Positions 23,496-41,720 of a DNA stretch of 64,000 nucleotides are shown in pieces. The stretch's first letter is position 1. Each line of letters starts with the position of its first letter. A program made the translations under genes and the position numbers. Source of the stretch: Meghimatium bilineatum (taxonomy: Eukaryota > Mollusca > Gastropoda > Stylommatophora > Philomycidae). The notes under the pieces were generated by a model. It did no database searches, had not been told where the DNA came from, and saw only the letters and a program-made list of their open reading frames with translations. The stretch lies in assembly GCA_034231615.1 (NCBI GenBank), contig CM067306.1:63846813-63910812 (forward strand), in the 5' to 3' direction.

Positions 23496-23624
23496 TTAAC
23501 CAGGGTAGTACAGAACCTTGACCTCTGGTGTAGAATCACAAGTCATGTGAAGGGACATAACTCCAATTAAGATCCACTCTCTGTTTGGCTTGGCGCTGCA
23601 GTAAACTGGACCTCCACTGTCACC
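23496..23624 (-). CDS. S1 homologue gene, exon 8
   Basis: Acceptor TATTTCCAG, 129 bases, TAA stop. Encodes GDSGGPVYCS then WILIGVMSL and a final VLYYPG. The nucleophile Ser and its oxyanion Gly are kept. The SWG strand is replaced by MSL and the C-terminal helix is absent. Confidence 0.9.
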   Translation of the reverse strand, partial: GDSGGPVYCSAKPNREWILIGVMSLHMTCDSTPEVKVLYYPG

Positions 23625-41600: not shown

Positions 41601-41720
41601 ATCGTCCCCGACGTAAGTGTTGATGTTACCTGGAGGCGCAGATAGGGCTTGTTTGTAGAGAAGCGCAAGAACCAACGCAATGATTGGTGCTCCCATTATC
41701 ACACGGATTGGTGCTCCCAT
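23496..41720 (-). CDS. Secreted mucin-stalk S1 serine-protease homologue, catalytically defective (whole gene, 8 coding exons)
   Basis: Exons 41696-41560 (or from 41720), 36832-36723, 34796-32391, 31182-30972, 29087-29023, 26606-26442, 25317-25181 and 23624-23496 join in phase, all GT-AG, to give 1119 residues. Residues 1-20 are a signal peptide. About 43-100 form a module with eight Cys. About 101-882 are a Thr/Glu/Pro/Asp stalk, expected to be heavily O-glycosylated. From 886 comes an S1 domain with activation-like site R892-ILNG and GDSGGP (Ser1080). The His position reads TAKIC, with Ile943, so normal triad catalysis is not expected. Position 189 is Leu rather than Asp. The domain stops soon after its last Cys and lacks the usual C-terminal helix. 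No homologue with this layout comes to mind. Role unknown; extracellular binding, mucus or defence are only guesses. Confidence 0.85.
24297..24390. repeat. 27-bp tandem repeat, 3 copies
   Basis: TATATCGAATACTTTCACA spaced at 27 bases, in the last intron. From 23640 to 24295 I see nothing else. Confidence 0.9.
24400..24625 (+). mobile_element. LINE 3' end fragment
   Basis: Reads RGRPRETLPRITIKEGM, later RALVSALCTG. Similar terminal layout to 545-812. Confidence 0.6.
25005..25150 (+). mobile_element. SINE family A, short form, diverged
   Basis: CCGAAGTCGGATGTG, ATACCGTTCTCTGTACTAC, GCTACAAGAGAGATCCGCTG and GAGTTTGAGAACGAACG. It ends only about 30 bases from exon 7. Confidence 0.7.
25181..25317 (-). 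CDS. S1 homologue gene, exon 7
   Basis: 137 bases, acceptor TCCTGCAG, donor GTAAGT. Reads YEVAVTLANSDCSS, DITDFMC and NLVCS, matching the S1 segment before GDSGGP. The specificity position 189 falls on Leu1074. Confidence 0.9.
25490..25690 (+). mobile_element. LINE 3' end fragment
   Basis: Reads GTVEEGRRRGGNRKSWIDNI, then MAEEKVVWRALC. The related minus-strand piece is at 43150-43250. Confidence 0.7.
26060..26140. repeat. Two-copy direct repeat, about 37 bp
   Basis: TCCCCTGCGTAATTATGCCA and TCCCCTGCGTAGTTATGCCA in tandem. Confidence 0.85.
26442..26606 (-). CDS. S1 homologue gene, exon 6
   Basis: 165 bases, acceptor ATATGCTAG, donor GTAAGC. Contains NILNDLGDC, where Asp996 may correspond to catalytic Asp102, and NCKALSYGASDA, which corresponds to the WG region. 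The loop between them carries an extra Cys pair (DCQRSAC). Confidence 0.88.
27060..27155 (+). mobile_element. SINE family A, 3' part
   Basis: GCTGTAAACCATGACACA, TTCTCCGGACTTAATC and an AAGAAGAAG tail. Confidence 0.65.
27790..27880 (+). mobile_element. SINE family B, tail fragment
   Basis: GCCTAGAAAAATCACTGCAG and AAAATGCTGAG match the tail of the copy at 59960-60175. A (TA)n run follows at 27900-27927. The preceding 27400-27700 stretch is unrecognised. Confidence 0.5.
27950..28545 (+). mobile_element. LINE C-terminal fragment related to LINE B
   Basis: Reads FNKLVNIWG, then LVNSCLIPVLTYECE and FENKCLRTILNW, the same region as LINE B at 2560-2750. Broken by frameshifts. Confidence 0.75.
29023..29087 (-). 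CDS. S1 homologue gene, exon 5
   Basis: A 65-base exon, acceptor TTTATCTTCAG, donor GTAAGT. Encodes FDIQIGKRSYPIVSETFTL, the S1 segment between the His and Asp positions. Its acceptor is the terminal variant of the 29-bp array next to it. Confidence 0.88.
29094..29412. repeat. 29-bp tandem repeat, 11 copies, against the exon 5 acceptor
   Basis: Unit AAATATAAATATTGGTG plus TTATCTGCAAAT. On the minus strand each unit ends TTTATATTTATTTGCAG, a pyrimidine tract plus AG like a 3' splice site. Confidence 0.95.
29565..29670 (-). mobile_element. SINE family A fragment
   Basis: CTCTCAAACTCCCGC, TGTAGTCTGGAGAACGGAGT and TGCTGCGATATCTGCGC. Confidence 0.6.
30060..30160 (-). repeat. tRNA-like repeat head
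   Basis: The minus strand carries GTGGGTTCGAAACCCAC, a strong B-box/T-arm-like palindrome, after a GTTTGTGGGC segment. Cloverleaf arms are not complete, so I do not call a tRNA gene. Confidence 0.4.
30185..30890 (+). mobile_element. LINE 3' fragment with internal fold-back
   Basis: Same family as 17960-18370 and 38470-38900: TTCACATACCTAGGAAGTAA, ATGCCAGCACTGTGCTAC, CTTGTGACAGCTGAAATGGC, and an ending with CGACCTAGAAG-type basic residues. Many stops. Confidence 0.7.
30628..30695. repeat. Perfect 25-bp inverted repeat with 18-base loop
   Basis: Arms 30628-30652 and 30671-30695 are exact reverse complements (TAGTCTGCTGATGTGTGC at the start of the left arm). It lies inside a LINE fragment. Confidence 0.97.
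30972..31182 (-). CDS. S1 homologue gene, exon 4
   Basis: 211 bases, acceptor GTGTATTCTAG, donor GTAAGC. Starts the S1 domain: CTQPTYRILNGQP (activation-like Arg892-Ile893), TCNAIFTVA, then FLTAKICLD, where the family has TAAHC. His is replaced by Ile943 while the neighbouring Cys is kept. Confidence 0.9.
31236..31870. repeat. (AGT)n trinucleotide array, pure then degenerate
   Basis: Nearly pure AGT at 31236-31460, decaying to mixed AAT/AGT/AGC triplets to 31870. Poly-Val and Ser/Asn open frames here are artefacts. 31880-32390 is unremarkable intron. Confidence 0.95.
32391..34796 (-). CDS. S1 homologue gene, exon 3 (mucin-like stalk)
   Basis: A single 2406-base exon, acceptor GCATTCTGCAG, donor GTAAGA. 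It begins with the last Cys residues of the N-terminal module (TTQCRCDPKTDC). About 780 residues of short repeats follow, mostly TTTEDP and TTTEEWTTPEDP, with TTTAEP blocks at both ends. Thr is the commonest residue, with evenly spaced Pro and acidic residues, and no Lys or Cys in the core. The DNA is an 18-bp minisatellite, so length variation between alleles is likely. The other open frames across it are by-products. Confidence 0.88.
35278..35385. repeat. 25-bp tandem repeat, about 4 copies
   Basis: GTTTATGTGGTCCATAATTT recurs every 25 bases. It sits in a T-rich intron stretch (34850-35440) with many TTTGTTCAGTTTATC-like units. Confidence 0.9.
35590..35750 (+). mobile_element. LINE 3' end fragment
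   Basis: Reads RRMESIKETFKVTRAD and a NMAEDRKL motif in another frame, a common LINE terminus. It runs into GACAGACA/GTAG simple repeats. Confidence 0.6.
35762..36158. repeat. (GTAG)/(GACA) then (GATA)n tetranucleotide array
   Basis: A mixed start followed by about 72 uninterrupted GATA units from 35871 to 36158. Confidence 0.97.
36205..36625. repeat. 28-bp repeat (3 copies) then degenerate 20-bp repeats
   Basis: GGAATGACAGGTAAGTCACG three times at 36212-36295, then many loose GGACAGATAAGACATTGAAG variants. Confidence 0.85.
36723..36832 (-). CDS. S1 homologue gene, exon 2 (Cys-rich module)
   Basis: 110 bases, acceptor GCAATTATAG, donor GTGAGT. Encodes YKTYTWRSDTKCCTYAE and then GYCCMD. The CC-x(8)-CC pattern, together with one Cys in exon 1 and three in exon 3, gives eight. 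Phases fit both neighbours exactly. Confidence 0.8.
36932..37655 (+). mobile_element. Internally deleted mariner element with perfect terminal inverted repeats
   Basis: The ends CGAGGCGTGTTCAAATGAAA and its reverse complement form perfect inverted repeats of about 31 bases, flanked by TA on both sides (36930-36931 and 37656-37657), as for mariner/Tc1 insertions. The element is 724 bases, about half an autonomous mariner. It lies in intron 2 of the S1 homologue gene. Confidence 0.93.
37069..37533 (+). pseudogene. Mariner transposase with catalytic core deleted in frame
   Basis: 154 residues. About 20-90 are the paired-like helix-turn-helix DNA-binding region (IQFLSFEGCQAVDIHRRM, then SRTRVMEWVRMFKDGR). 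After LDKAV it jumps to the transposase C-terminus (LFGPLKKALKGQRF, then WFREQPRNFF and WDACLNAYGDFF). All three catalytic acids lie in the missing part. The frame stays open, so a DNA-binding fragment could still be made. A later in-frame Met at 37093 is an equally good start. Confidence 0.85.
37690..38110 (-). pseudogene. Second mariner transposase relic
   Basis: Minus-strand frames read MLHDIALAHRFIVVKQDISE (the HDNAPAH-type catalytic Asp block), then LKSTLKGYRFKDADDVI and QLLYTR, NYVAAKGNYLEGNVV. Frameshifts and a stop break it. It belongs to a different mariner lineage from the neighbouring deleted element. Confidence 0.75.
38222..38385. repeat. 16-bp tandem repeat, about 10 copies
   Basis: AATCTTCATTACATAC with T/C variants. 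Confidence 0.92.
38470..38900 (+). mobile_element. LINE 3' fragment with (AAG)n tail
   Basis: An open stretch of 131 residues from 38481 includes KRQLVTTEMRCLRKATG, QIQWFGHLERM and GRPRVRWIDNIKE. The DNA tail GGAAAGAAGAAGAAG resembles the tail of SINE family A. Confidence 0.8.
39446..39975. repeat. 38-bp tandem repeat, about 14 copies
   Basis: GAGAGTTGTCAACCGTTAGT plus GGGTAGAGTTATTGAAAT, with GGG/GAG and CAACC/CCACC variants. Confidence 0.95.
40010..40430 (-). mobile_element. LINE 3' end fragment
   Basis: The minus strand encodes FETKCYRKILRISWTNSISN, VLSRKLQYFGHVKRHDSLEK and a basic tail. Same family as 61140-61640. It ends in (ATG)n on the minus strand. Confidence 0.8.
40425..40540 (+). 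mobile_element. SINE family B fragment
   Basis: TTCAGAAAGCAATGGCAAAC and TACTAAATGTAACTG match the conserved core of family B. Confidence 0.5.
40915..41065 (+). mobile_element. SINE family A, short form
   Basis: CGGATGTGTCGGGCCATTGG, AAAACGGCGACAGAACGCAT, ACACCCTGCTGGAAATC and GCGGGAGTTTGAGAATGAAC. Confidence 0.8.
41560..41720 (-). CDS. S1 homologue gene, exon 1 (signal peptide)
   Basis: Donor GTAAGT at 41559, phase 2. From the ATG at 41696: MGAPIIALVLALLYKQALSA, then NINTYVGDDGRRYYSTPLSC. A 24-base tandem duplication adds a second in-frame ATG at 41720, giving eight extra residues (MGAPIRVI). TATCACAC/GTGTGATA forms a short palindrome just upstream. I cannot tell which ATG is used. Confidence 0.82.

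Follow-up and report, generated by a model that had tools for sequence, protein, structure and literature searches.

A mollusc gene family combining a Cys-rich head, a Thr-rich stalk and a predicted non-catalytic S1 domain

Arthropod clip-domain serine-protease homologues (SPHs) are secreted proteins in which a Cys-rich N-terminal module and a linker precede a dead S1 domain. The literature describes catalytically inactive CLIPA co-factors (PMC7580898), a mud-crab SPH reported to bind bacteria (PMC3665817) and, for mollusc mucins, an A-B-A plan in which a Thr-rich region lies between two Cys-rich ones (PMC10475054). The protein presented here resembles clip-domain SPHs (CLIPA, masquerade-like) in being predicted to be secreted and in its Cys-rich N-terminal module, linker and non-working S1 triad, and it resembles the A-B-A mucins in having Cys-rich ends around a Thr-rich, presumably glycosylated centre.

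The gene was found in a window of 64,000 nucleotides (positions 63,846,813-63,910,812 of contig C9) of the Meghimatium bilineatum genome (1.61 Gb, 32 contigs). A mollusc host is borne out by the mollusc-type haemocyanin beta-sandwich domain PF14830, which has 50 matches in this genome, every one of them on C15 or C22, and none in 14 prokaryote controls. The protein differs from clip-domain SPHs in that its N-terminal module has eight cysteines and no Pfam match, its Thr-rich stalk is very long, its family has no C-terminal helix, and the host is a mollusc and not an arthropod. Unlike the A-B-A mucins, it carries an S1 fold at one end and a strongly acidic centre. Peptidase family S1 itself (PF00089) is alike in its profile match and its chymotrypsin-type Cys pattern; by sequence, however, our family is not a peptidase, its C-terminus is shortened and the profile matches the C-terminal barrel only. 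The same genome encodes S1 proteases on contig C17 that share a Cys-containing N-terminal region, a Thr-rich linker and an S1 domain with the window protein, but these have LTAAHC, NDIALIKL and GDSGGP all present (and are apparently active), a linker of some tens of residues, an S1 domain in one open frame and a different N-terminal region. Such apparently active genes with a short Thr-rich linker form a cluster at about 20.53-20.60 Mb of C17, from which the stalked plan may have arisen. An S1 pseudoprotease and a mucin-like stalk are thus known kinds of module, and it is their combination, together with the head, that appears to be undescribed: a literature search by domain and sequence words, which reached neither the bulk of subscription papers nor any mollusc sequence database, did not find it, and uncharacterised database entries with the same domain order may well exist.

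The window gene lies on the minus strand and consists of eight exons (41720..23496; 161, 110, 2406, 211, 65, 165, 137 and 129 bp) that join into a single stop-free frame. All seven introns are GT-AG and their phases (2,1,1,2,1,1,0) fit at every border. The frame holds 1127 codons from the first ATG (41720) and 1119 from Met9 (41696), in agreement with the initial annotation, which had proposed eight in-phase exons, a 1119-residue product and a signal peptide in one chain with an eight-Cys module, a Thr-rich stalk and an S1 domain. Exon 1 (41560..41720) encodes the signal-like N-terminus and the first Cys of the module; it has a GTAAGT donor in phase 2 and a hydrophobic stretch (APIIALVLALL), and exon 1 of paralogue B is similar. 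The hydrophobic core follows Met9, the call of a signal peptide being made on hydrophobicity alone and not with a predictor, and no membrane anchor-like stretch occurs past the N-terminus (best 19-residue Kyte-Doolittle mean, 1.39). Exon 2 (36723..36832) carries the CC-x8-CC part of the module, and exon 3 (32391..34796) its last three Cys (CxC-x5-C) followed by the 781-residue stalk. The S1 domain begins in exon 4 (30972..31182), with C1, RILNG as the remnant of an activation site, the C42/C58 landmarks and the His57 position, and continues through exon 5 (29023..29087), exon 6 (26442..26606; the Asp102 position, C122, C136), exon 7 (25181..25317; C168, C182, C191) and exon 8 (23496..23624), which ends the frame with GDSGGPVYC (holding Ser195), C201, C220 and the stop. 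Intron 1 also contains an open frame (37018-37530, plus strand) that we take to resemble the N-terminal part of a mariner transposase.

Two close paralogues were recovered elsewhere in the genome. A search with the S1 region (E up to 10) gave 15 matches, five of them within the window gene, four at C9:63.235-63.243 Mb (paralogue A), four at C8:67.054-67.076 Mb (paralogue B) and one each at C9:49.69 Mb (E 0.04) and on C17 (E 4.6). In reciprocal searches, B found itself five times, the window gene and A four times each and C9:49.69 Mb once, and the last six of its 20 matches were weak hits in further S1 genes (C17 and C24); the 14 matches of A (E up to 1) comprised five to itself, four to the window gene, four to B and one to C9:49.69 Mb. 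B has eight exons (137, 110, 687, 217, 65, 156, 137 and 129 bp; 545 residues) with phases identical to those of the window gene, and its exon 2 also has the length and Cys spacing of the window exon 2. A, 0.63 Mb from the window gene, was read as seven exons and 440 residues: its first exon encodes a hydrophobic N-terminus and a nine-Cys head, and exons of 354, 214, 65, 162, 137 and 129 bp follow. The stalk exons are homologous (354 bp in A, 687 bp in B), and three exon lengths (65, 137 and 129 bp) are equal across all three genes. It is the paralogues that carry the gene model, because they repeat its exon order, its phases and some of its exon lengths; the window locus appears to be an intact gene. 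A check set beforehand, namely that related genes should show the same domain order, gave a Cys-rich head, a Thr-rich stalk and an S1 domain in both close paralogues, with the proviso that in A the order holds and the head is a different version. Altogether, these comparisons indicate a small protein family rather than an accident of gene prediction, and the repetition of the plan rules out a chance open frame.

At the C-terminal end, Pfam PF00089 (Trypsin) matched the window protein with E 5.2e-9 (36.7 bits, against a curated cut-off of 20.6), and with the limit set at E 1 the profile picks up all three family members. The window match covers only positions 121-207 of the 220 in the profile, that is, the C-terminal half, as do PDB matches such as plasma kallikrein (E 5.8e-6); a Pfam scan of the head and S1 pieces gave Trypsin and a sub-threshold Peptidase_S6 and no other family. 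Twelve cysteines of the S1 region are invariant in all three proteins and sit at chymotrypsin-type landmarks. Presumably they form the chymotrypsin pairs 1-122, 42-58, 136-201, 168-182 and 191-220 plus one extra pair, a pairing that is putative. The triad of an active enzyme (His57, Asp102, Ser195) is complete in none of the three: at the His57 position the window protein has Ile, B has Asn and A has Leu, while Gly occupies the Asp102 position in all three and Ser195 is retained throughout, within DSG(G/S)PVYC. SPHs classically lose Ser195, whereas here it is His57 and Asp102 that are lost. The His57 and Asp102 assignments rest on two alignments with apparently active proteases of the same genome. 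Profile comparison with three of these covered 121 C-terminal columns (E 3e-6, probability 88%); a relaxed local profile alignment spanned 210 columns, in which FLTAKIC lies against VLTAAHC and GPNGTGFIEV against GQNDIALIKL, and MAFFT paired these residues in the same way. Run globally, the profile alignment failed, covering two columns (probability 0.03). The helix past the 220 region is also absent from all three proteins, which end in VKVLYYPG, IKVIPHPG and LKVIPMPN where the reference proteases run on with YYRNWI-type tails. Judged by its sequence, then, the S1 fold cannot cleave, as the initial annotation had supposed of this domain, and because the dead state is common to all three genes it is inherited and predates the window copy.

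The head was compared with the available libraries. The window head, with its eight Cys distributed over exons 1 to 3, matched no family in Pfam or NCBIfam (E up to 1), and its best PDB match reached only E 0.51; the heads of B and A matched no Pfam family (E up to 0.1) and that of B no NCBIfam family. A clip domain, with its six Cys, was considered for the head and set aside on this lack of a Pfam match for all three. A genome search with the window head found itself (three matches), B (two matches, E 2e-4 and 0.07) and six further matches at E 0.39-4.1, and did not recover A. The head of A has nine Cys counting into the next exon and shares the CC...CxC-x5-C pattern at its end, so that it is recognisable as the window module in the last Cys pattern only. 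We treat the head as a putative new Cys-rich module, set apart by its absence from the libraries tried.

Taken together, these features fit a small mollusc family of presumably secreted S1 homologues, of which the window gene is an intact member. Its product would act as an extracellular mucin-like scaffold or adaptor in which the S1 fold serves for binding, a reading to which we give about even chances and which we would prefer over the others. The initial annotation had suggested that it may be a mucus, cuticle or immune factor with a long glycosylated arm. The main competitor of the scaffold reading, which we regard as possible though clearly less probable, is an immune or haemolymph SPH like the clip-domain SPHs or masquerade-like proteins, whose dead S1 domain would dock on proteases or microbes as a cofactor while head and stalk provide location and reach. 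In general layout it follows such proteins, with a signal, a Cys-rich module at the N-terminus, a linker of low complexity and a dead S1 domain, and an activation-site-like RILNG or RILFG is kept in two of the three members, the third having RLLNA; the Cys module, by contrast, is not a clip domain by the Pfam test. To our knowledge, a stalk of 91-781 residues is unusual for SPHs.

The window stalk spans residues 101-881 of the 1119-residue form and is composed of Thr (45%), Glu (20%), Pro (12%) and Asp (10%) in 118 scored hexapeptide units, mostly EDPTTT; one more unit is off-pattern and was dropped, so that the repeat analysis took 118 of 119 units. It is a long Ser/Thr/Pro-rich repeat region of the kind that marks secreted mucins, and stalk length varies freely in the family (781 residues in the window protein, 207 in B, 91 in A). 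This free variation in length and composition fits mucin-type spacers. The earlier description of a mucin stalk is loosely right, inasmuch as the region is long, repetitive and Thr-rich; it is also polyanionic, its 781 residues including 239 Asp/Glu and 4 Lys/Arg. Because the window stalk alone is acidic, a mineral or periostracum matrix role could be entertained for this copy, the EDPTTT stalk binding calcium in a shell or other hard part and the end domains fixing it there. We consider this improbable: the charge of the window stalk speaks for it, but acidity is not shared across the family, since Asp and Glu are missing altogether from the stalks of A and B (0/91 and 0/207).

At the DNA level the stalk exon consists of an 18-bp minisatellite, in which one of the reverse-strand frames is stop-free too and the other two same-strand frames have 12 and 10 stops; the open frame of this exon is thus weak evidence when taken alone. 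Synonymous differences from the consensus unit numbered 57 of 211, where 14 of 54 would be expected were every change equally likely, a share so close to expectation that no codon-level selection is visible inside the array. The S1 region behaves differently from a decaying sequence: amino-acid identity among the three genes is 45-47%, yet their four-fold sites differ at 34/48, 35/45 and 34/43 positions (71-79%), and second positions differ at 31-38%, with divergence at third positions and four-fold sites far higher. This combination led us to reject a decaying copy and indicates that the family is old and maintained at the protein level. A false join, in which the minisatellite exon would separate the unrelated exons of two genes, one of them Cys-rich and the other a decaying S1 gene, draws on the repeat nature of the stalk and its lack of visible selection. 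It is very improbable given that A and B repeat the order of head, stalk and S1, that their phases match and F[KR][KS]LC is conserved where the stalk passes into S1, and that the window copy is no more diverged than they are and keeps all 12 S1 cysteines.

A fourth, distant S1-like relative lies on the minus strand at about 49.684-49.698 Mb of C9. It reads GDFGAPIYC, with Ser195 replaced by Phe, and by eye has Asp at the His57 position. Neither an N-terminal part, head nor stalk was found at this locus; a 1424-codon open minisatellite upstream on the same strand was considered as its stalk and rejected, no head or splice borders being recognised at its ends. A genome search with this relative (E up to 1) gave eight matches: four to itself, one each to the window gene, A and B (E 0.05-0.5), and one at C9:49.80 Mb (E 0.98).

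Other features were noted along the way. On the minus strand of the window, positions 900-12694 hold parts of a gene for an FKBP-type prolyl isomerase (FKBP_C, E 1.4e-17 at 6386-6697). Its first piece (12398-12694; E 0.016) and an EF-hand (3201-3470; E 7e-5) fall below cut-off; the product has a hydrophobic N-terminus and terminates in HEEL. Its last exon is seemingly doubled (about 929-1090 and 3200-3370), and frames resembling reverse transcriptase were recognised by eye between the copies. An ISXO2-like (IS1595-type) transposase domain (E 3e-17) occupies 10984-11238 on the minus strand, with an adjoining frame at 11232-11774. Outside the window, the sequence at C2:121989805 has an ND2-COX1 stretch followed by repeat sequence and is probably a nuclear mitochondrial copy; ARAGORN with bacterial settings found no tRNA in this stretch.

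Returning to the scaffold or adaptor that we favour, the protein would be secreted and its stalk kept extended by O-glycans, to which the window copy alone would add about 235 net negative charges. The head might anchor or multimerise the chain through disulfides or binding, a role at which we can only guess because it matches no known family, and the dead S1 fold may bind other proteins as the tail of the chain, whether in mucus, in the extracellular matrix or in haemolymph. On this account, which we hold at evenly balanced confidence, the genes would represent a new mollusc extracellular family in which an ancestral dead S1 fold became the disulfide-rich end of a mucin-like scaffold that also has a new eight-Cys head; the stalk of one member would have turned into a polyanion of about 118 repeats. 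In our judgement, the proteins found in the mucus, matrix and haemolymph of molluscs have been poorly catalogued, and named domains are often missing from them. The gain is a testable family of three genes with a defined domain order and a new Cys-rich module, and a case in which a dead protease may have been kept as a structural or binding module while the stalk beside it changed freely.
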